Part shown: one piece after another, positions 27,105 through 45,044 of the stretch
Position numbering within the stretch: position 1 is the stretch's first letter
How the letters are laid out: the number at the start of each line of letters is the position of its first letter
Source of the DNA: a bacterium
Lineage (GTDB): Bacteria; Sumerlaeota; Sumerlaeia; MVZB01
Reading direction: 5' to 3'
Assembly: GCA_021372575.1 (NCBI GenBank)
Contig: JAJFUE010000087.1
Span: 1-57,683 of the forward strand
DNA length: 57,683 bases
The notes under the pieces: model-generated
The model's database searches: none
The model's input: the letters and a program-made list of their open reading frames with translations, nothing else
What the model was told of the DNA's origin: nothing
Made by a program: the position numbers and the translations under genes

Positions 27105-27212
27105 CAGGCGTCGAATTGCGGGAATAACCGGCCAACCCACCATGGCCAAACTTATGGTACGCCCGCACGACACCCCGGCGCAAGCGCGACCGAAGCTTCG
27201 CCATGGGCAATG

Positions 27213-27275
27213 GTTCGTCCCATGGGTCCCATAAGTCGCATCACTCCCATCGTCCCATCCCACACCCTCCCGCCA
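27213..27275. repeat. Nonamer-type repeat between the kinase and bamA
   Basis: Degenerate GTCCCATGG, GTCCCATAA, GTCGCATCA, CTCCCATCG, TCCCATCCC words in nine-base steps, in the divergent gap upstream of bamA. Same family as 41233 and 49765. Confidence 0.65.
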
Positions 27276-27343
27276 TGTTTTGTATTGAAAGTTGCGCGCC
27301 AAAGAAGCTAATTTTTTCAACAGTTCGCGCGAAAGTGACGCCC

Positions 27344-29707
27344 ATGGCACGCATGACCCACCCGCACGTTTCGCTCTCCATGCTTTCGGCCCGTTTGCTT
27401 GCGCTGATCCTGATCGCGGCGATCCCCGCCGCGGCCCTCGCCGATGACGAATTCGAGGGCAAAACGATCCGCGAGATCGTCTTCAGCGGGCTCACCCACT
27501 CGACCCCGCAACAGATGCAGTCGTTCATCAAGACCAGCCCCGGCCAGCCCTATCACGCCCTCGCCATCCGCGCCGACCTCAACCGCCTCGCGCGCGAGGT
27601 CCGCACGGCGGCCGTCGATGTCGTGGCGCTCCCCGACGGCGGCCTGCGCGTCACGTTCCGCGTCGCCGAATCCCCCGTGCTGAACAAGATTTTCATCCGC
27701 GGCAACGAGAAGATCAAAACGGCGAAGATCGAAAAAATCATCGACAAGAAACCGGGCGACAAGATCGACGAGGACCTGCTCGGCCACGTCCGCACCTCGA
27801 TCCTGAACGAGTATCGCCAGCTCGGCATGCCGCAGGCCGAAGTGCGGGTCGATCTGATCGAACCCGCCGGCAAGGACCAGGCAACCACCGCGACCATGAA
27901 ATCCGACCTGCAGGTGCTGATCACCGAAGGCACCCAGACGCAGGTCAAGGACGTGATCATCCAGGGCAACGAGGCGTTCACCGCGACCCGCCTGCGCATG
28001 AACCTCGTCACCAAGGGCTCGCTCGGGTTCATCAAGAACTACTACAACGAAACCGTGTTCGACAACGACCTGACCAACCTGCGCGAATTCTACATGACGC
28101 ACGGCTATTACGACGCGCGCGTCGAGCGCGGGGTGTTCGAGGAACAGAAGACGGCCGCCGGCAAGGCCCTCATTTCACCCGTCATCCGAATCTCCGAGGG
28201 CCGGCACTACCGCTTCGGCCCAATCCGGGTGCGCGGCGTCCACATGTTCTCGCAGGACGAAGCCGACGCGCCGTTCAAGGACCTGCCCGGCAAATACTTC
28301 GACGGCGGCCTTTATACCGGCGCCGTGAACAAGCTCAAGGCCCTCTACTACAACCACGGCCTGCTCACGACGCAGTTCCGCGAGAGCTTCGAGCGCGAGG
28401 CCACGTCCGCCACCCTCGCCGTCACGATCGACGTCGCCGAGGGCCGCCGCATCCACGTCGGCAAAGTCAACGTGGTGCGCCCCGAATACCCGCCCGAGAA
28501 GGAAAAAATCAGCCGCGTGCGCGCGTGGTATGAAAAGCGCACGCCGCCCGTGGACGACGACGTCATCCGCCAGGAGATCCTGCTCAAGCCCGGCGACGTC
28601 TATAACAAGAAACTCGAGCGCGACTCGGTCCGCCGCCTCGCCCGCCTCAACACGTTCGACACCCAGGACGAGAAGCTCAAGGCCTACAACAAGCCCACGT
28701 CCGACCCCGACATCCACGACATGGTCGTCGAGCTTCAGGACAAGACGACCGGCCTCGCCGGCGGCGGCGTCGGCTACGGCGACGCGACCGGCCCGTATAT
28801 CTTCGGCCGCATCCGCGAGAACAACGTCGGCGGACGCGCCGACATCTTCGACACCGGCATCCTGCTCGGCACGCGCGACTCGCGCGTCTCGATGAGCTAC
28901 TTCGACCGGCACTTCGGCGGCGGCCCCGATTCGCTGCAGAACACCGTCTTCTACCAGACGCTGCGGCGCCCCGGCTACAACGCCAAGACCGGCGGCTACA
29001 ACATCGAGCGCGGCCACGACCTCGGCGACGACCAGAAGCTCTACATCCTCGGCCGGCTCGAATACGTGGCCTTGAGCGAGGCGCACCACGTCCACGCCGC
29101 CGAGGACCTCGACCAGTCCTACCCCGTCCTCACCGGCCGGCTGCGCTGGGTCGAGGACACGCGCGGCCCCATCGGCAGCTTCTATAACGAAGGCCGCATG
29201 CAGGCGTATTCGGCCGAGGCCGGTTACGCCGGCGCCCCGCTGCTGCGCCTGGAAACCGATCACGACCGCTACACGCGGCTCAGCGACATGTGGACGTGGC
29301 GGCTCGCCGCCAGCGCCGGCATGATGCCCTACGACCGCGAGACGGTCCCGATCCACGAGCGCTACTTCCTTGGCGGTGCGCAGGACATGCGCGGTTTCGC
29401 CTATCGCGGCGCCGGTTACTTCGACAAGAAGGACGACGACGTGCCGATCGGCGGCGCGGCAAAGGTGTTGGTCAAGAACGAACTCATCCGGCCGCTGTTT
29501 GATCCGCTGGCCGGCGTGCTGTTCGTCGATGTCGGCGACCTCGGCCGCTCGCCGGTTTCGTGGCAGGTGCCGCGCGTCTCGACGGGCGCCGGTCTGCGCT
29601 TCAACCTGCGCCAGGTGCAGGTCGCGGTCGATCTGGCCATGCCGCTCGTCACACAGGACCACGACAACACGCAATTCTTCCACTTCAGCATGCAGGGCTC
29701 GTTGTAA
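27344..29707 (+). CDS. bamA: Outer-membrane assembly factor BamA (Omp85)
   Basis: 787 residues. Signal peptide 1-32 (LLALILIAAIPAAALA). Five POTRA domains follow (starting near EGKTIREIVFSG, VLNKIFIRGNEK, QVKDVIIQGNEA, RFGPIRVRGVHM and HVGKVNVVRPEY), then a 16-strand-type barrel from about residue 490 with the conserved GGAQDMRGF segment (the VRGF motif). BamA inserts beta-barrel proteins into the outer membrane, so the organism is diderm. Five POTRAs fit BamA better than TamA (three). The last residues are MQGSL, not the usual C-terminal aromatic. No skp, lpxD or bamD is adjacent, unlike many genomes. The ATG at 27344 gives the best signal peptide. Confidence 0.93.
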   Translation: MARMTHPHVSLSMLSARLLALILIAAIPAAALADDEFEGKTIREIVFSGLTHSTPQQMQSFIKTSPGQPYHALAIRADLNRLAREVRTAAVDVVALPDGGLRVTFRVAESPVLNKIFIRGNEKIKTAKIEKIIDKKPGDKIDEDLLGHVRTSILNEYRQLGMPQAEVRVDLIEPAGKDQATTATMKSDLQVLITEGTQTQVKDVIIQGNEAFTATRLRMNLVTKGSLGFIKNYYNETVFDNDLTNLREFYMTHGYYDARVERGVFEEQKTAAGKALISPVIRISEGRHYRFGPIRVRGVHMFSQDEADAPFKDLPGKYFDGGLYTGAVNKLKALYYNHGLLTTQFRESFEREATSATLAVTIDVAEGRRIHVGKVNVVRPEYPPEKEKISRVRAWYEKRTPPVDDDVIRQEILLKPGDVYNKKLERDSVRRLARLNTFDTQDEKLKAYNKPTSDPDIHDMVVELQDKTTGLAGGGVGYGDATGPYIFGRIRENNVGGRADIFDTGILLGTRDSRVSMSYFDRHFGGGPDSLQNTVFYQTLRRPGYNAKTGGYNIERGHDLGDDQKLYILGRLEYVALSEAHHVHAAEDLDQSYPVLTGRLRWVEDTRGPIGSFYNEGRMQAYSAEAGYAGAPLLRLETDHDRYTRLSDMWTWRLAASAGMMPYDRETVPIHERYFLGGAQDMRGFAYRGAGYFDKKDDDVPIGGAAKVLVKNELIRPLFDPLAGVLFVDVGDLGRSPVSWQVPRVSTGAGLRFNLRQVQVAVDLAMPLVTQDHDNTQFFHFSMQGSL

Positions 29708-34029: not shown

Positions 34030-37000
34030 TCAATTCAGATTGATCTTGCCGAGCTGCGCCAGGATTTCCTTGGCCGACTGCCAGCGCTGGTTGGGGTCCT
34101 TGGCCAGGCACTTCATGACCAGTTCGTTGAATGCCTCGGGCACGTCCTTGAGCGGCTTGGGCTCGACGAACATGTGCTGGTACGCCAGGTCGCCCTCGGT
34201 GAACGGCGGCTTCCCGCCGGCCATCTCGTAGAACACCGCGCCCATCGAATAAATGTCCGCGCGGTGATCGACCGGAGCGCCCTTGACCTGTTCAGGGGAC
34301 ATATACAAAGGCGTCCCGACAATCACGCCCGCCTGCGTCGATTCGTTGCCGCTCGTCTCGTCCTGGACCATTTTCGCGATGCCGAAGTCGGTGACCTTGA
34401 TCTGGTCGTCGCGCGTCAGCATCAGGTTCGCCGGCTTGATGTCGCGGTGCACGATGCCGATCGAGTGCGCGTATTCCATCGCCTCGCACACCTGGCGCAC
34501 GTACTTGACGATCTGGTCGATCGGCAGCCGGTGGCCCGGCGCCTGCCGCAGCTTCTGCCGCAGGTCGCTGCCTTCCACGAACTCCATCGAGATGTACTTG
34601 CGGCCGCGCTCCTCGCCGATGTCGTGGATGCGCACGATGTTCGGGTGCGCCAGCCGCCGCGCGTTGCGCGCCTCCTGCCGGAACCTTCTCACCGCCTCCG
34701 CGTTGCGGATCAGGCTGTCGGGCAGGATCTTGAGCGCCACCATCTCGTCGAGCTCGTGGTCGTGCGCCTTATAGACGATGCCCATCGCGCCGCGGCCGAG
34801 CTCCTGCATCAGCTCGTAGCGCGCCTTGGCTTCCTCCGAAAGGCTGTTGAGGATCGCCGTGCGCTCGGCGCTCGCGGCGACGACGTTCGTATCGACGAGC
34901 CGCTCGAGCTTGCCCTTGACGTCGCGGTACGTGATGTCCGCGGCGAAGATCTGCTTATAGACCTCGCGCGCGCCCTGAAGGTCGTGGACGGCCTCGTAAC
35001 GCTGCCCGAGCTCGTAAAGCAGCCCCTTGATCTCGTCGTCGATCGGCAGCCGCCGCAGCTCCTGCAGCGCCAGGTCCAGCATCCCCTTGGCCATGAAGCA
35101 GCGCGCCAGGTTGCGCAGCGAGTCGGCCTCCCAGCGGTAATCGCGGCTCGTCTGCTGGAAGCACGAGATCGCAAGGTCGTGCTTATCAACCCGCATCGCC
35201 AGCCGCCCCAGCTGGAACCGGACCTCGGTCGAGTCGCGCTTGGCGAGGATCTGCTGGTAGAACGCGAGCAGCGTGCGGATGATTTCCTCGTGGTCTGGGT
35301 GCAGGTGATAGGCCTGCTCGAGCGCCTCGCGGGCGCCGGCCGCGTCCTCGCGCGCCAGCAGGATGCGCCCCTTTTCGAGGTAAGCGAGGGCGTCCTGCGG
35401 ATTGCGCTCGATGATCTGCTCGTAGGCCCTAAGCACCTCCGCCGACTGGCCGGAATCGAGCTTGACGATTTCGCCCAGCTGCCGGCGCGCCTCGGCCAGC
35501 CGCGCGGCGAAGATCAGCGAATCGACGAGATAAAACCGCAGCGCGAACGCCCGCGGGAAGTTGTCGATCAGCCCCTCGATCAGCTCGATCGCCGCGTTGA
35601 GCTGCCCCGGATTGCGCGTCAGCATGTTCTTGATCGTCTGGATGACGTGGTCCCACGTCTCGCGCACGGCGTAGGCGCGCGCGGCCGCCAGGTAGTGCTG
35701 CGGCTCGTCGGGCCGCAGCTTGATCGCGCGGTTGTAGATCTGGATCGCCGCGTTGTCGTTGCGGCGGCGCCGCCCGTAGAGCGAGCTCAGCGATACCAGC
35801 GCGTCCTCGTCGTTGGGATTGTCGGCCAGCACCTGCTCGTAGCCGCTGATCGCCGACTCCATCTGGTTGGCCTTGTTGCTCACGGCGGCCATCAGCTTGC
35901 GCAGTTCCTTGTTGTCCGGCTCGATCTCGTGCAGCTTGCCGCACAGCTCGAGCGCGCGCTCGGGCAGGTCGGCCGCGTTCCAGCAGCGCGCCAGAGCCAG
36001 CCCGATGTCGAAGCGCTCCGGATGGCGCTCGAACACCGGCGCGAACACCTGCGCGGCCTCCTGGTCCATCCGCCCCTTGCGCAGGTAAATCGCCGCGAGG
36101 TTGTCCTGGATCGTCGCGTGGTCGGGCAGGTGCAGGAGCGCCTCGCGATAAATCGTCTCGGCCTTGTCCTCGACGATCCCCAGCCGGCAATAGGCGTCCG
36201 CGAGCTGCAGGATGAGGTCCCGGTCGTGCCGGCCCATCGTCAGCAACGGCTCAACGGCGCGGATCGTGAGCGTGTCGTCCTGGTCCGTGCGCGCGATCTC
36301 GGCCAGCTGTGCGAGGATCGTCTCGTCGAGCGCGTGGTGCACGAGTGCGCGCTCGTAGAGCTGCCGCGCCTCGTGGTCCTGCCGGCCTTCCTGCGCGTAG
36401 CCGTGACTGACGGCCAGCAGGATCTCCGGCGCGTCGGGGTTCGTCTCGAGCGCCCGCGCGAAAATCTTCATCGCCGTCGAATCGAGCCGGTGTTCGGCGG
36501 CGTAGCACGCCCCGAGCAGCCGCAGCCCGACCGAGTCGTTCGGGTTGACCTGGAGCACCTGCTGCGCGTGCAGCATCGCCTCCTTCGTCTGTCCCGACTG
36601 CAAATTCCGCGTGGCAAGAATAATGTGCGCCGGCGGCGAGGCCGCGTCCATCTCGAGCAGCTCCCTGGCCAGCTGCTGCGCCTGCTCGTCGTAGCGCCGC
36701 GCTTCCTTGCACGCCTGGCAATACGTCCTCAGGAACGCGCGGTCCTTGCGGCGCTCGGCCAGCACGCGGTCGAGCGTCGGCAGGATGTCGGGCGAGCTGA
36801 TGCCGAGCTCGATATACAGGTCGGTCAGCAGCCCCGGCAGCCGCGGCTCGTCGAACTGGTTGATGATCGCATGCCGATACGCCTCGAGCGCCTCCCGCGA
36901 CCGCCCGAGCGTCTGGTGCGTCTGCCCGAGCAGGAAATACCACGGTCCCGGGTTGCGGCTGATCTGCGCCATCTGCGCGTAGATGCCGGCCGCCTGCTCG

Positions 37001-38916
37001 TCATGCCGCGGAATCGACGAGTAGGCCGTCGCAAGCGCCGCCAGGTATCGCGCGTCGTCGGGCATGAACTGGCGCACGCGCTCGAACGCCGCCGCGCTCG
37101 TGGCGTCGAACCGCTTCTCGGTCAGATACAGCTCCGCGATCTCGGTGACCAGGCCCGTGCGCCCCGGGAAGATGCGCGCGGCCTTCTCCAGCAGCGCCAC
37201 GGCGTGATCGGGCGCGCCGCCGGCAAGCGCCCTGCGGGCCCGCATGCGCAGCAGCCACGCATAGCCATTGCGTGCCGCGGTCCAGATCAGCCATCCCAGC
37301 AGCGCCGCGACCAGGATGGCCGCCAGCACGATCGGCACGAGGTTCTTGCGAATCCAGTAGGTCTGCTGCAGCTGAAGCGCCTCGCGGTGATGCGGGTTCT
37401 GATTCAGGACCAAACCGACCGTGTCGAGCGCGTTTTTCCATTCGCCCGCCGCGCCCTGGCGCTTTGCCGCCGCCAGCAGCTGCTCGAGCTTGCTCGCGAA
37501 AGCCTTGCTTTGCTCGGCCTTGAACTGCTGGTATGAGTGAACGATGCTGCCGGAGCGGGTTGGGCCGCCGCGCGGGCCAAGCCACGGCGCCGAGCCCTCG
37601 AAGAACGGAATGCCCAGCTCCAGCATGTAGCAGATGCCGTCGTTGTCCGTGCGCGCGAACACCTCGGTGCCGGCGCGGCCGAGGAGCGGCCCCACGATCG
37701 GCGTCGCGACCGGCTCGCGCGGCAGGTCGAAGTGCCGCGTCAGCGCGCGCCCGCGCAGGTCGAGCACGCTCACCCCGCGCACGTCGCAGAACACGGCATA
37801 CGGCCGCCGGTCGGCCCCCAGAAAAATCGCCGGCGGGCTGGTGATGTTGTTCGGCGCGCCGAATTCGACGTAAGGCTTGTTCGGCTCCCAGAGCGACTGC
37901 CCGGTCTTGCCGTTGACCAGGTAATATCCCTTGTCGCGCGGAATCAAAATATCGTCGCACTTGTCCCCATCGACATCGACCGCCACGGGGGACTGCTTGG
38001 GCGGGCTCAGGATCGAACGCTGCGCGGCCAGCTCGCCGTTGCCCGAGCCCTGCGGCCACCCCGGCTCCATCTGCGCACGCCCGACCCGGTATGCGTAAAG
38101 ATACCCGTCGCGGTCGGCGATGATCAGCTCGGACGTGTCGTCATTGTTCAGGTCGGCCAGCGTCACGCCGAACTGGCTGCGCCCCTGTCCGGGCAGGTGT
38201 CCGTCGATCGCGATCTCGGGCCGCCGCCCGGAGAACGTCGTGATCGCGCCCTCGTTCGTCACGAACGAGATGTGCGGTTCGGGCGCGTCCAGGCTCGTCG
38301 GACCCACGACCGGCGTCGCGCTCAGGACGTCGAGCGTCTTGTATTTGAAAATCGGTTCGCCGAGTCCCTGCGAGAGCTCGAGCAGGTAGCCGTTGAGCGT
38401 GCGCTCGCTCGGGTCGTAAAGGATGATGCCCTCGCGGTAATTCGGCTTGGAATCGGGCCACGGAAAGACGACCGGCGCCATGTTTGGGGTGTATGTGCTG
38501 CGAAAGGAATGTTCGATCGCGCCGGTCGCGCCGTTCAGCACGAAGATTGATCCACTGGTGCTGACGACCAGCACCTCGATGTGGCCCAGCCCGAGGAAAT
38601 TGCCGGTCACCGGGCTGAGCAGCGTGTTCTCGCCCAGCGGCGTTTCCCACAGCGTCTCGCCCGTGTCCGGATCGACCGCCGAAACCTTGTTGGTGATATC
38701 GACTTGGATGATTTCGATGCGGTGGTCCAGGTCGATGTCGGCCGCGGCCGGCTCGGGCGCATTCGGGTATCCGACCGGCTTGCTCCAGATCTGGGCGGCC
38801 TCGTTCGTGTCAGCCGCGTGCGCCGTTGCGCACAGCAGCAACAACCCGATCGCGAGCGCTGCGGCGAACGATCGATGGCGTTGAAACTGGCGGCATTCGG
38901 GCGGCGATTTCGGCAT
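34030..38916 (-). CDS. Giant exported-propeller / TPR / Ser-Thr protein kinase
   Basis: 1628 residues from the ATG at 38916 (AAAGGTG upstream). Signal peptide 1-35 (SFAAALAIGLLLLCATAHA). Residues about 36-455 are a PQQ/FG-GAP-type beta propeller with acidic loops (ADLNNDDTSELIIADRDGYL, VDVDGDKCDDILI). A membrane helix (525-545) follows. Residues about 550-1350 are many TPR units. The C-terminal 262 residues are a Pkn-type kinase: GRGAMGIVYKA, VALKIL (Lys), HRDIKPANLM, DFGIAK, MSPEQ. All key residues are kept, so it should be active. Topology: propeller outside, TPR and kinase in the cytoplasm. Having the kinase at the extreme C-terminus after TPRs is unusual. Divergent from a glycosyltransferase. 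Confidence 0.93.
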   Translation of the reverse strand: MPKSPPECRQFQRHRSFAAALAIGLLLLCATAHAADTNEAAQIWSKPVGYPNAPEPAAADIDLDHRIEIIQVDITNKVSAVDPDTGETLWETPLGENTLLSPVTGNFLGLGHIEVLVVSTSGSIFVLNGATGAIEHSFRSTYTPNMAPVVFPWPDSKPNYREGIILYDPSERTLNGYLLELSQGLGEPIFKYKTLDVLSATPVVGPTSLDAPEPHISFVTNEGAITTFSGRRPEIAIDGHLPGQGRSQFGVTLADLNNDDTSELIIADRDGYLYAYRVGRAQMEPGWPQGSGNGELAAQRSILSPPKQSPVAVDVDGDKCDDILIPRDKGYYLVNGKTGQSLWEPNKPYVEFGAPNNITSPPAIFLGADRRPYAVFCDVRGVSVLDLRGRALTRHFDLPREPVATPIVGPLLGRAGTEVFARTDNDGICYMLELGIPFFEGSAPWLGPRGGPTRSGSIVHSYQQFKAEQSKAFASKLEQLLAAAKRQGAAGEWKNALDTVGLVLNQNPHHREALQLQQTYWIRKNLVPIVLAAILVAALLGWLIWTAARNGYAWLLRMRARRALAGGAPDHAVALLEKAARIFPGRTGLVTEIAELYLTEKRFDATSAAAFERVRQFMPDDARYLAALATAYSSIPRHDEQAAGIYAQMAQISRNPGPWYFLLGQTHQTLGRSREALEAYRHAIINQFDEPRLPGLLTDLYIELGISSPDILPTLDRVLAERRKDRAFLRTYCQACKEARRYDEQAQQLARELLEMDAASPPAHIILATRNLQSGQTKEAMLHAQQVLQVNPNDSVGLRLLGACYAAEHRLDSTAMKIFARALETNPDAPEILLAVSHGYAQEGRQDHEARQLYERALVHHALDETILAQLAEIARTDQDDTLTIRAVEPLLTMGRHDRDLILQLADAYCRLGIVEDKAETIYREALLHLPDHATIQDNLAAIYLRKGRMDQEAAQVFAPVFERHPERFDIGLALARCWNAADLPERALELCGKLHEIEPDNKELRKLMAAVSNKANQMESAISGYEQVLADNPNDEDALVSLSSLYGRRRRNDNAAIQIYNRAIKLRPDEPQHYLAAARAYAVRETWDHVIQTIKNMLTRNPGQLNAAIELIEGLIDNFPRAFALRFYLVDSLIFAARLAEARRQLGEIVKLDSGQSAEVLRAYEQIIERNPQDALAYLEKGRILLAREDAAGAREALEQAYHLHPDHEEIIRTLLAFYQQILAKRDSTEVRFQLGRLAMRVDKHDLAISCFQQTSRDYRWEADSLRNLARCFMAKGMLDLALQELRRLPIDDEIKGLLYELGQRYEAVHDLQGAREVYKQIFAADITYRDVKGKLERLVDTNVVAASAERTAILNSLSEEAKARYELMQELGRGAMGIVYKAHDHELDEMVALKILPDSLIRNAEAVRRFRQEARNARRLAHPNIVRIHDIGEERGRKYISMEFVEGSDLRQKLRQAPGHRLPIDQIVKYVRQVCEAMEYAHSIGIVHRDIKPANLMLTRDDQIKVTDFGIAKMVQDETSGNESTQAGVIVGTPLYMSPEQVKGAPVDHRADIYSMGAVFYEMAGGKPPFTEGDLAYQHMFVEPKPLKDVPEAFNELVMKCLAKDPNQRWQSAKEILAQLGKINLN

Positions 38917-39009: not shown

Positions 39010-40164
39010 ATGATTTCGTCCACAACAAACTCCCCTGCCACCCCGCCCGCCGGCCCCCTTGCCGGCATTCCGGTCGCCCTGGTACACGATTGGCTGCTCG
39101 GGATGCGCGGCGGCGAGTGGGTGCTTAATTCACTGCTCAAGATTTTGCCGACCGCCCACGTCCATACCCTTTTCTATCACCCCGAGCCGATCGAGGGCTC
39201 CATCAACCGCCGGGCGATCCACCCGTGCGTGCTGAACCGGCTGCCGCTCGTGCGCCACTACTACCGCTGGCTGCTGCCGTGGCTCCCCAAGGCGATCGAA
39301 TCGATGCCGATCGACCCCGGGCGCAAGCTCGTGCTGGCCACCAGCCACTGCGTCGCCCACGGCGTCAAGGCCCCGCCCGGCGCCGTGCACATCAACTACT
39401 ACTTCAGCCCGATGCGCTACCTGTACGACCAGCAGTGGCTCTACCGGCAGCGCGGCGGGCTGGCCTCGTTCGGGCTCAAGGCGTGGTCGGGCCGCCTCGG
39501 CCGCTGGGACGTCGAGGCCGCCGCGCGCGCCCACCACCTCTGGGCCATCTCGCAGTTCGTGGCCCGCCGCGTCGAGCAGGCCTACGGCCGGCGCCCGCGC
39601 GTCATCTACCCTCCCGTCCGCACGCACCGATATGTCCCGCCGGCCACCCCGCGCCGGTCCACTGAATATCTTCTCGTCTCGGCGATGGTTCCATATAAGC
39701 GAAACAGCCTGGCGATCACGTGCGCCAACAAGCTGCGCCTGCCGCTGCGGGTCGTCGGGCAAGGTCCGGAATTGGGCGCAATGCGCCGCATGGCCGGCCC
39801 GAGCGTGCGCGTCGTCGGCCCCGTGCCGGAAAAACAGCTCATCGAGCTCTACCAGACGCGGCGGGCGCTGATTTATGCCGCCGAGGAGGATTTCGGCATC
39901 GTCCCGCTGGAGGCGATGGCGTGCGGAATGCCCGTGCTGGCGTTGCGCGCCGGCGGGCTCAAGGAAACGATCGTGGAGGGCAAGACCGGCGAGTTTTACA
40001 ACGAGCCGACGATCGACTGCCTGGCCGCGGCCCTCGAGCGCTTCAACCCCGAATCCTACGACCCCGCCGCCTGCCGCGCGAGAGCCGAAGAATTCAGTGA
40101 AGAGCGGTTCCTCGCCGAAATCTCGCAAGCCATCATCGAAGCGCTCGAACCGCCGCGCAAGTAA
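39010..40164 (+). CDS. GT4-type glycosyltransferase
   Basis: 384 residues. It opens VALVHDWLLGMRGGEWVLN, the donor-independent GT4/GT-B start; the later half has VSAMVPYKRNSLAI, VVGQGPELGAM and the EEDFGIVPLEAMACG motif (the E-x7-E sugar-nucleotide site). Such enzymes add mannose or other sugars to lipid-linked or envelope glycans. No polysaccharide cluster is around it, and the substrate is unknown. The ATG at 39010 gives a 21-residue leader before the fold. It is divergent from the large kinase, with 93 bases between starts, so the two might share control. Confidence 0.9.
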   Translation: MISSTTNSPATPPAGPLAGIPVALVHDWLLGMRGGEWVLNSLLKILPTAHVHTLFYHPEPIEGSINRRAIHPCVLNRLPLVRHYYRWLLPWLPKAIESMPIDPGRKLVLATSHCVAHGVKAPPGAVHINYYFSPMRYLYDQQWLYRQRGGLASFGLKAWSGRLGRWDVEAAARAHHLWAISQFVARRVEQAYGRRPRVIYPPVRTHRYVPPATPRRSTEYLLVSAMVPYKRNSLAITCANKLRLPLRVVGQGPELGAMRRMAGPSVRVVGPVPEKQLIELYQTRRALIYAAEEDFGIVPLEAMACGMPVLALRAGGLKETIVEGKTGEFYNEPTIDCLAAALERFNPESYDPAACRARAEEFSEERFLAEISQAIIEALEPPRK

Positions 40165-41790: not shown

Positions 41791-41936
41791 AAATCTTCTC
41801 CCCCCCCGCCTGCCATGCTCCCCACGGCGCGCGCTTTGCCATGCCCTGATATATTCAAGCAGGCCGGCGTCTTGCGCCGGCCTGCTTGTTTTGTTTTTTT
41901 GCGAGCTGTTCTTTTGGCGTTTTTGCCTGGGACTCT

Positions 41937-44159
41937 TTATTCCTCGGCCACGCCGCAGAAGTAGGGGTTTTCGTAGCAGAAGTTCTCGCGGCACGTCTCG
42001 GCCGACCAGATGTGGCCGACGTTCGTCGTGCTGTTGGCGTCCTGGCGCGTGAAGTCCTTCGTGTAACCGAGCGGCCGCAGGTGACGCGCGGCGAGCCTCA
42101 GCGCGGCGCGGCGCACGACGTTGTCCTTGCTGTCAGCCACCTCGGACTTGATCGCAGCCTTCCACTGCTGCGGCGTGACGCCGAGCTCGGCAAGGTTGTG
42201 CCGCTCGTAGGCGCCCTCGAAATCGAGGAGCTCCTCCTTGAGCAGCGCCAGCAGCTTGCGCGCCGCCTTCGTGTCGCCGAGCCAGTGATGGACGTAGATC
42301 GCATTGATCATCGCCAGCGTGAGCATCGCCACGTTCTGGTAGAACGCGCGCTGGTCCATGTTCTCCCAGCCGATGCCGGTCGAGCGGCCGCTTTCCATGC
42401 AGAAGAAGATCGCCTGGGCGGCCGCGCCGGCGATGGCCGCCGACGTCGGGTCGAACTGGCCCTTCGAGCCCGCGCGCAGATACTTGGAACCGAGCTCATG
42501 GACGTTGATGTCGGCCTCGGCCAGGTCGTGCTGGATGAAATGCTCGCGCCAATAGACGTAGGTGTAATGGGCGAGGAAATCCTGCACGTTGGCCGAGCGC
42601 TTGTCGGCGGCCTTCTGGCCGGTCATGTCGCCGAGCACGACGGCCATGCCGCCCTCGGCCGTCTCGAGGTCGCCCATCACCGCCGCCACGCAGCGCCGCC
42701 GCGCGCGGTCCCACGCGACCTTCCAGCACGGGTTGCCGGGCTCCTGAACCTTGGTGCCTTCCGAAACGAGCCGCTCGTAGGGCCGCGCAACCAGCGCGGG
42801 CTTGCCGGAGCCATTGGTGGCCGTCCCGAACCAGCGCGACAGGTCGCGCGCGTTCTCGGTGTTCCAGCCGTTGCCGGCGCTGTCGTTGTGAACGTGAATG
42901 GCCTGCGGCTCGACCTCGGTGCAGCCGAACTCGCCGCGCAGCTTGCCGCGCACGTAGAAATCGGGGGACAGCGGCAGATAGCCGAGCTCGGTCAGCTTGA
43001 CCAGCTTCTGCTGGAAATTGATGATCGAGCGCGGGTTGTAGGAGATCGCCTCGAGTTCCTCGTAATGGCTCCAGCCGTAATGCACGTTCTGCTGGTTGAT
43101 GTCGGAATCGACCTTGGCGATTGTTCGGTCGAGGAGCTTCTTAACGGACGGATTGGCGCGCGTGACCCAGTCGCTGAAGCCGCGGTCGCGGAACAGGACC
43201 GAAATCTGCTGGAACCCCTCGTGCAGGTCGGCATTCTTGGCGCGGGCGCGCGTGGAGCGGCCGTTGCCGTTGCCGTTATGGCCGTTGCCGTTGTGCGGCG
43301 CGACCACGAGCTGATTCCACGACTTCATGAGCACGTCGTTCTCGGGGAAATCGGCCTGATGGTTGTCGAGGAGGATCATGAGGTGCGCAGTGCCGAGCTT
43401 TTCGCGCCGGCAGAAATCGCTGAATTCCTCGCGCAGGATGCGCAACACGCGGTCGCTGAACGCCCCCTCGGGCAGCCAGTACGGCAGCACCATGAGGCCG
43501 CTCTCGCCGTTTTCCTCGAGGAACTCGGAATAAAGCTTGAGGACGCGCGAATAGAAGATGAACGACGAGCGCGCGCACATCCTGATTTCGGCGTCGCTCT
43601 CGAGGCACGGCAGCATGACGTGGAACGGCGACGTGAGGCATGGCGCCAGCGTCCCGTGGTGGAAAAGTTTCATCAGATTGACGTAGGTCGTGTCGCCCGA
43701 TTCGTAGTCGGCCTCGATGATGTGGTGCAGGGCGTCGGGGTCGATCGCGAGCGACATGAACGGCACGCGCAACCCGGAGCCGCTGTTCTGCGCCACGCAA
43801 GAATCGATGAAGCGCCCGATGCCGGCGAACAGGTCGAACATGGTGCGGTAGATTTTGAGCATCAGTTCGGACGGGTTGCGCCCGCGGACAACCTGATCGC
43901 CGATCTGGGCCGCCAGCGGCGAAAAACGCTCGACCCATACCGGCGGCTCCGAGAAATTGTCGATCAGCTCCTCATCATCCTCGTCCTCGAGGCTTACCGG
44001 CAGCAGACGCTCGATATCGACCCGGCAGCCAATGCCGTATGTGAACCCGTGATAGATGGGGTGAAACAGGTTGATGGCGGCTTGATCGGCCTGACCCGAG
44101 GCTGTGGGTGCGGACATGGACTGACGAAATCCGGGCCGAGTGGCTTTGGCGGGGCTCAC
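41937..44159 (-). CDS. 740-residue conserved-looking protein, possibly GH57-like
   Basis: 740 residues from a GTG at 44159, chosen because AAGGAGG lies 6 bases upstream; ATG 44117 is the next option. No signal peptide. The first third has features that recall glycoside hydrolase family 57 (HHIIEADYESGDTTYVNL, TSPFHVMLPCLE, GLMVLPYWLPEGAF, HLMILLDNHQ), but I cannot identify catalytic residues, so this is tentative. A low-complexity Asn/Gly linker (NGNGHNGNGNGRS) lies near residue 300. The last 250 residues are helical and end in a Cys-bearing tail (SAETCRENFCYENPYFCGV). If GH57-like it would act on alpha-glucans in the cytoplasm, in line with pgi nearby. Confidence 0.6.
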   Translation of the reverse strand: MSPAKATRPGFRQSMSAPTASGQADQAAINLFHPIYHGFTYGIGCRVDIERLLPVSLEDEDDEELIDNFSEPPVWVERFSPLAAQIGDQVVRGRNPSELMLKIYRTMFDLFAGIGRFIDSCVAQNSGSGLRVPFMSLAIDPDALHHIIEADYESGDTTYVNLMKLFHHGTLAPCLTSPFHVMLPCLESDAEIRMCARSSFIFYSRVLKLYSEFLEENGESGLMVLPYWLPEGAFSDRVLRILREEFSDFCRREKLGTAHLMILLDNHQADFPENDVLMKSWNQLVVAPHNGNGHNGNGNGRSTRARAKNADLHEGFQQISVLFRDRGFSDWVTRANPSVKKLLDRTIAKVDSDINQQNVHYGWSHYEELEAISYNPRSIINFQQKLVKLTELGYLPLSPDFYVRGKLRGEFGCTEVEPQAIHVHNDSAGNGWNTENARDLSRWFGTATNGSGKPALVARPYERLVSEGTKVQEPGNPCWKVAWDRARRRCVAAVMGDLETAEGGMAVVLGDMTGQKAADKRSANVQDFLAHYTYVYWREHFIQHDLAEADINVHELGSKYLRAGSKGQFDPTSAAIAGAAAQAIFFCMESGRSTGIGWENMDQRAFYQNVAMLTLAMINAIYVHHWLGDTKAARKLLALLKEELLDFEGAYERHNLAELGVTPQQWKAAIKSEVADSKDNVVRRAALRLAARHLRPLGYTKDFTRQDANSTTNVGHIWSAETCRENFCYENPYFCGVAEE

Positions 44160-44552
44160 GATACGCCTCCTTCTGTTCGACGGCGAGACAACCAACACTC
44201 AATGGGCGGCATCATGCGCTTTACGCCCGCTCGGGAGCGGTTCGGACTGGATCGGAAGTGCTGCTGGACATGGCGATTGATGCTTTTCAGGTGTGCCGGC
44301 ATACGGCCCCCCGATGCCGGCGGGCATATCTATTCTAGCTCAGGATTTAAGCACATCATACCTGTTTGCGTCAAGGCGAATTTGGATCCGAAGCTCCAAA
44401 AACCCCGGAAATACGGAGGTTTTTGGAGTGAATGGTTGATAGTGAAATGGTGGATAGCGGGATATCAAGACTTCCCGATCGGACGAACAGACCAATTCCT
44501 CTGGCATCATTTCCCGATCACCATGCACCATTCACTATCCCCTACCCTCTCA
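44160..44552. other. Gene-free stretch (393 bp)
   Basis: Upstream of the 740-residue gene lies a perfect GCCGGCAT/ATGCCGGC hairpin (44295-44321), about 135 bases before its start; it could be a leader or promoter-proximal structure. The part near 44425-44545 holds GGTTGATAGTG, GGTGGATAGCG and CCATTCACTATCCC words. A 63-codon open frame on the minus strand (44340-44531) shows no protein character and is not called. Confidence 0.6.
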
Positions 44553-45044
44553 TCACGACTCGGCGCTTTTGATGATCTCGATGAACGAGTGCGGGATCGG
44601 GGCGGCGAGGAGGGCCTCGCGCGTTGCGCGCGATTTGAGCAAATGGGTCACCTGGGCCAGAATCTTCACGAACTCGCGCGTCTGGCGGTCCGAAGCCCCG
44701 ATCAGGAAGATCAGGTTGACCGGCGCGCCGTCGAGCGAGTCAAAGTTGAGCCCTTCACGGCAACGGCCGACCGCCGCCACGTAATCGGAGACCTCGGGGA
44801 TCTTGACGTGGGGGATGGCAATCCCCATGCCGACGCCCGTCGAGACCTGCGCCTCGCGCTTGAGGATCGCCTTGAAAAACGCCTCGCCGTCCGCGACCTG
44901 CGGCGTTGCGGCGCAGGCGGCGCTCAGGATCCGCAACGCATCCTCCTTGGTTGAGGGTTTTAATTCGAGGATGCGCTCGGGGACGATCAACTGGCTCAGG
45001 ATGGGTGAGTTCGGCGCCAAAGAACTGGTTCCTTCCGGTGGCAT
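44553..45044 (-). CDS. PTS EIIA-type (PtsN-like) phosphocarrier protein
   Basis: 163 residues from the ATG at 45044; an in-frame GTG at 45059 is possible. The fold is that of the fructose/mannitol/Ntr EIIA domain: ILSQLIVPERILELKPSTKEDALRIL cut to its core ERILELKPSTKEDAL, then FFKAILKREAQVSTGVGMG and the phospho-His in GIAIPHVKIPEV. PtsN-type proteins are regulatory and take phosphate from HPr or NPr. No other PTS gene, rpoN or hpf is adjacent, so a regulatory rather than transport role is likely. Confidence 0.88.
   Translation of the reverse strand: MPPEGTSSLAPNSPILSQLIVPERILELKPSTKEDALRILSAACAATPQVADGEAFFKAILKREAQVSTGVGMGIAIPHVKIPEVSDYVAAVGRCREGLNFDSLDGAPVNLIFLIGASDRQTREFVKILAQVTHLLKSRATREALLAAPIPHSFIEIIKSAES

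Follow-up and report, generated by a model that had tools for sequence, protein, structure and literature searches.

The window analysed here, a stretch of 57,683 nucleotides, comes from a member of Candidatus Sumerlaeota and carries on its minus strand a gene for a protein that joins a predicted extracytoplasmic beta propeller, a single membrane helix, a long TPR array and a Ser/Thr kinase (Table 1). The reading frame has no internal stop over 1628 codons. It remains open in the 5' direction as far as a GTG at 39087. We took as the start the ATG at 38916, which has an RBS-like AAAGGTG just 5' of it, since from here the protein begins with a proper signal peptide (RHRSFAAALAIGLLLLCATAHA-AD) and the gene does not run into a divergent glycosyltransferase gene at 39010-40164. 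On the plus strand, positions 41886-44951 hold a 1022-residue open frame without a Pfam match; the DNA is GC-rich and this may be a chance frame. A comparison of about 35 loci found no shared gene neighbourhood or operon around the kinase gene, and thus no recurring neighbour that would hint at a pathway.

Table 1. Features of the propeller-TPR-kinase gene and its product (window coordinates; residue numbers refer to the protein)
Feature	Position	Strand	Residues and evidence
Complete coding sequence	34030..38916	-	1628 aa; ATG at 38916; stop codon 34030-34032
Signal peptide	38812..38916	-	1-35; RHR n-region, FAAALAIGLLLLCAT core, AHA-A cleavage-type site; hydropathy 2.05
Beta propeller, periplasmic	37618..38793	-	about 42-433; AlphaFold2, Foldseek, Pfam
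Acidic loop 1	38713..38739	-	60-68, DIDLDHRIE; motif scan; in some orthologues only
Acidic loop 2	38128..38154	-	255-263, DLNNDDTSE; motif scan
Acidic loop 3	37951..37977	-	314-322, DVDGDKCDD; motif scan
Periplasmic TPR-like helices	37345..37539	-	460-524; three helices between propeller and membrane; AlphaFold2
Single transmembrane helix	37285..37341	-	526-544; hydropathy 2.80
Cytoplasmic TPR superhelix	34894..37212	-	569-1341; about 45 helices; Pfam TPR families, AlphaFold2
Conserved TPR junction adjoining kinase	34891..35241	-	1226-1342; identity 0.545; common to sibling kinases
Ser/Thr kinase domain	34042..34827	-	1364-1625; K1396, E1415, HRD 1490-1492, DFG 1510-1512, activation-loop T1527

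The signal peptide and the single membrane helix, which the first-pass annotation had claimed and which were specifically checked for, are both present. Hydropathy of the protein reveals only two hydrophobic segments: residues 17-35, with AHA-A at their end, and residues 526-544. In all 24 full-length orthologues a single membrane helix occurs at the equivalent position, as judged by hydropathy, and the N-terminal hydrophobic segment is likewise found in every one of them, if weakly in three (0.87-1.26). Given these two segments, cleavage of the first makes no difference to the expected arrangement, with the propeller outside and the C-terminus inside. Basic residues lie on the TPR side of the membrane helix across orthologues; in the window protein the outer side is basic as well and the positive-inside signal is weak (3 versus 3 flanking basic residues). 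Because both sides are flanked in this way, the topology assignment is based on the signal peptide and the ATP requirement of the kinase. The signal peptide, the membrane helix and the C-terminal kinase together agree with the reversed order and type-I topology proposed earlier, in which the sensor is outside and the kinase is inside and last. In the canonical receptor kinase layout the kinase is N-terminal and the sensor lies outside at the C-terminus; here the kinase occupies residues 1364-1625 of 1628.

The secreted propeller of the first-pass annotation is predicted behind the signal peptide by an AlphaFold2 model of residues 36-622, built with an orthologue alignment (mean pLDDT 89, pTM 0.83). 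In the model, the propeller strands extend over residues 42-433 and form eight blades by strand count, the first strand (42-47) closing the ring, while a long helix (526-565) contains the membrane segment and runs on into the cytoplasm. The profile HMM search that had been suggested as a check returned Pkinase and TPR families for the rest of the protein and, in the N-terminal part, a single FG-GAP_3 match (268-325, 29.1 bits versus a cut-off of 26.9) and a weak PQQ_2 match (77-137). The nearest solved folds found by Foldseek are BamB and YxaL. These share with the window protein an exported beta-propeller fold of the BamB/PQQ type, a likeness of fold only at about 11-16% identity; unlike the window protein, they are not kinases and have no membrane helix.

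The same matches bear on a reading of the propeller not as a ligand sensor but as an anchor or assembly part that would place the kinase at an envelope machine, such as outer-membrane assembly or the cell-wall machinery. BamB chains are the best Foldseek matches (11-16% identity), the acidic loops and the propeller surface evolve quickly and lack conservation, and the same window carries a BamA/Omp85-like gene (27203-29704). However, BamB is a generic solved prototype of such propellers and the BamA neighbour does not recur in other genomes (about 35 loci), and we hold an anchoring role to be quite unlikely. The Omp85/BamA-like gene itself lies on the plus strand, about 4.3 kb from the kinase gene, and encodes POTRA domains.

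The acidic FG-GAP-like loops described in the first-pass annotation are present in this propeller, though not throughout the family. A scan for the pattern DxDxDxxxD found three of them in the window protein; orthologues have from none to three, and several lack them altogether. Integrin-type (FG-GAP) calcium propellers carry DxDxDG loops in successive blades, to be compared with the three loops and one marginal FG-GAP_3 match seen here. The loops are lineage-specific rather than a family feature, and since their number varies so among orthologues, calcium binding cannot be a family-wide function.

Many Pfam TPR families match through the middle of the protein. An AlphaFold2 model of residues 545-1628 shows about 45 helices that follow one another without a break (569-1341), then the kinase, and the array structurally resembles long TPR proteins such as SKI3, CTR9 and OGT. 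The roughly 800 TPR residues reported earlier therefore stand as a long array, with the length revised to about 770 residues. Model confidence drops below 50 at the linker and the kinase N-lobe, probably because the alignment hardly varies there, and the modelled packing of junction and kinase is for this reason tentative.

The last 262 residues had been described as a complete Ser/Thr kinase with intact catalytic motifs, and both statements hold. Pfam Pkinase (PF00069) matches residues 1367-1620 with 198.6 bits (cut-off 31.7), and the protein ends 3 residues past the kinase domain. The features of Hanks-type, PknB-like kinases are in place, namely the VAxK lysine, C-helix glutamate, HRD, DFG and an APE-type motif; the catalytic lysine, the glutamate, HRD, DFG and the activation-loop threonine are invariant in the 24 full-length orthologues. 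PknB is the best PDB match (197 bits), and the closest kinases are PknB, StkP and PknA, not GCN2, PERK or IRE1. The protein stays below the cut-off of the PASTA kinase/Stk1 family NF033483 (316 versus 450 bits, from the kinase part only), and no PASTA domain is among the Pfam and NCBIfam matches listed for it. T1527 aligns with the PknB activation-loop T171 and is a predicted phosphosite, invariant in 24 of 24 orthologues. Equally invariant are R1366, L1389 and D1432, the positions matching PknB R10, L33 and D76, which we take to be the N-lobe dimer residues; PDB entries of PknB L33 mutants were found among the structure matches. We considered these positions as a receptor-specific mark and dropped the idea, as most sibling kinases, soluble ones included, carry them. 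They would point to a PknB-type active kinase and not to receptor dimerisation as such.

Orthologues scoring above 1200 bits with a 24-row profile were detected in 36 of the 39 genomes of the uncultured class Sumerlaeia. In 28 of the 36 they span propeller to kinase, several of the others being on short contigs, and the three class genomes without an orthologue include two incomplete ones (72% and 66%). The named relatives belong to Candidatus Sumerlaeota (BRC1; class Sumerlaeia) or come from untitled bacterial bins, except for one mis-binned record and three weak Verrucomicrobial matches. Outside the phylum, both genomes examined from another small phylum (L111, L112) encode a signal peptide, an FG-GAP/PQQ propeller, a membrane helix, TPR and a C-terminal kinase. 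The layout is accordingly no one-off; it is a class-wide orthologue that also occurs in a second phylum. Its retention in nearly every sequenced member of the class indicates that the protein is real and probably important within Sumerlaeia. The propeller version was not seen in a genome of another Sumerlaeota class (G039, two best candidates examined), which has an Hsp70-headed sibling kinase.

These orthologues also settle whether two genes have been mistaken for one here, or whether the product is a non-functional fusion. The draft assembly behind the window consists of 214 contigs, and misjoins in it are conceivable in principle. Against this, the 24 full-length orthologues are of similar length (1598-1682 aa) and come from separate genomes, the two genomes of another phylum keep the same layout, and the kinase is strongly conserved. 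We therefore dropped the frameshift or fusion artefact, which the first-pass annotation had named as a way for its reading to fail, as next to impossible, and regard the propeller-TPR-kinase with its membrane helix as confirmed to be one intact gene.

Conservation is distributed very unevenly along the protein. Mean pairwise identity is lowest in the membrane region (0.19) and the propeller (0.22), intermediate in the TPR array (0.29-0.33) and highest in the junction (0.55) and the kinase (0.62); a fast-evolving outside combined with a conserved kinase is what would be expected of a receptor. A single-sequence scan of the genome contigs with the propeller-membrane segment gave no match, since the sensor diverges too fast; the junction alignment did recover relatives.

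Two groups of records among these relatives call for comment. The 'Spirochaetae' relative (L099, Spirochaetae bacterium HGW-Spirochaetae-7) shares its propeller kinase with the BRC1 bin HGW-BRC1-1 (L098); on sequence grounds, faulty binning of this public genome is the probable explanation. The Verrucomicrobial loci L104-L106 gave weak TPR matches at 30% identity and were set aside; of these, L104 encodes TPR but no kinase. This Chthoniobacteraceae protein (L104:5906-7363, 485 aa) matches the kinase-junction TPRs with its C-terminus, and L105 and L106 match at the same place; the protein may have given rise to the junction or may act as a partner.

The window genome encodes four clear kinases, one with the kinase nearer the N-terminus and three with the kinase last, behind TPR: the propeller-membrane protein, an Hsp70-TPR protein (C115, L041) and a soluble TPR protein (C83, L042). 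The two siblings align with the window protein from the TPR junction (1226 on) through the kinase. They have this junction and the C-terminal kinase in common with it and differ in their Hsp70 or plain TPR heads and in lacking the membrane helix. The Hsp70 protein (L041:2335-5940, minus strand, 1200 aa) consists of a full Hsp70/DnaK head (HSP70 at 597 bits), TPR and a C-terminal Ser/Thr kinase. Hsp70-headed kinases form a separate clade that is seen in many Sumerlaeota genomes, further loci being L126, L132 and L134-L139; these Hsp70-kinase fusions are noteworthy in their own right. In other phyla, L120 and L121 have the same C-terminal kinase behind a membrane-spanning TPR. Another-phylum locus (L119, G178) encodes a soluble 1135-residue protein in the order TPR, PQQ/WD40-like propeller, TPR and kinase, the kinase again being last. 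The kinase tree largely separates the Sumerlaeota propeller kinases from the Hsp70 kinases; a single origin is compatible with the data both for the Sumerlaeota propeller kinases alone (AU p 0.33) and for all propeller-headed kinases including those of the other phylum (AU p 0.14). The conserved unit is the TPR junction plus the C-terminal kinase, with propeller-membrane, Hsp70, membrane TPR and soluble TPR heads being interchangeable. Because this cassette recurs with other heads, one of them soluble, it would be the functional core. The sibling set, with three kinds of head (propeller-membrane, Hsp70 and soluble TPR) on one core, offers a natural comparison for the gating of such kinases.

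N-lobe dimerisation activates PknB and PknD, and the dimer is structurally related to those of PKR and Ire1 (PMC3601408). In the reading that we favour, and consider reasonably probable, the protein is a type-I receptor kinase that PknB-like N-lobe dimerisation would activate, and its long TPR array would serve as a docking scaffold. According to sequence and models, the signal peptide exports the N-terminal propeller, one helix crosses the membrane, and the long TPR array ends in the conserved junction, to which an intact PknB-type RD kinase is fused. Recognition of an envelope or extracellular ligand by the propeller may then cluster or reorient the receptor, so that two kinase domains could meet via a PknB-like N-lobe interface (R1366, L1389, D1432) and T1527 in the activation loop be phosphorylated in trans. 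The TPR array would mainly bring substrates or partners to the kinase, and only the conserved junction beside the N-lobe might gate its activity. PP2C phosphatases and FHA readers elsewhere in the genome, which has two PP2C frames and five FHA frames, could complete the circuit.

The first-pass annotation had instead let the signal pass from the propeller through the TPR superhelix to the kinase, a part of its reading that the data do not favour. Such a mechanical or allosteric conduit, from propeller ligand through membrane helix and superhelix to kinase, agrees with the single long helix 526-565 crossing into the cytoplasm and with a TPR array modelled as unbroken up to the kinase. Yet the array between membrane and junction covers some 770 residues of poor conservation, its identity lying far below that of the junction and the kinase; long TPR arrays are generally flexible, and siblings with a soluble or an Hsp70 head rely on the same junction-kinase core but lack such a route. 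We consider the conduit unlikely.

The receptor with a TPR docking scaffold can be compared with several known systems. As the first-pass annotation had held, the order of its parts departs from the usual one, in which the kinase is N-terminal. In the Planctomycetota kinase survey, TPR and WD40 repeats come after the kinase, at the C-terminal end, and are mostly periplasmic (PMC11032199). These TPR/WD40 Ser/Thr kinases (Ca. Uabimicrobium; PMC11032199) are likewise membrane kinases with long TPR or propeller-forming repeats, whereas in the window protein the TPR array lies in the cytoplasm and precedes the kinase, and the propeller is N-terminal. Mycobacterial PknD has an N-terminal kinase, then a transmembrane segment and an extracellular six-bladed NHL propeller (PMC1262709, PMC3601408). 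Like the window protein, it is a Ser/Thr kinase that spans the membrane, carries a beta propeller on the extracytoplasmic side and has a kinase domain of PknB type, activated in PknD via N-lobe dimerisation; unlike PknD, which lacks a TPR array, the window protein has the reverse order and a cytoplasmic TPR array inserted. A literature search, conducted mostly outside subscription journals, found no published description of the propeller-TM-TPR-kinase layout. Bacterial transmembrane Ser/Thr kinases with a reversed sensor-to-kinase order exist, as a stable class-wide orthologue that is found in a second phylum too.

A further parallel, in layout, is with eukaryotic IRE1 and PERK (PQQ-like luminal domain, transmembrane segment, kinase), which likewise combine a signal peptide, an extracytoplasmic propeller-related domain, one membrane helix and a C-terminal cytoplasmic kinase. 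In contrast to them, the window kinase is closest to PknB, has a long TPR array in between and is not followed by an RNase. As neither the KEN RNase of IRE1 nor kinship with eIF2alpha kinases such as PERK was found, the resemblance is one of layout only and not that of a homologous receptor. One could further imagine a Sumerlaeota stress or proteostasis kinase family in which a single TPR-junction-kinase core takes interchangeable heads, a periplasmic IRE1-like propeller or a cytoplasmic Hsp70. We judge this improbable; if true, the family would be an independently evolved bacterial counterpart of the IRE1/PERK and Hsp70 logic.

Finally, two orthologues from different families (L018 in G010 and L032 in G020) have an in-frame TAG at the same codon of kinase subdomain IX (RADI*SLG), where other orthologues have Tyr. 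The kinase frame continues after it in both, and candidate readings of the codon are an error, truncation or readthrough.
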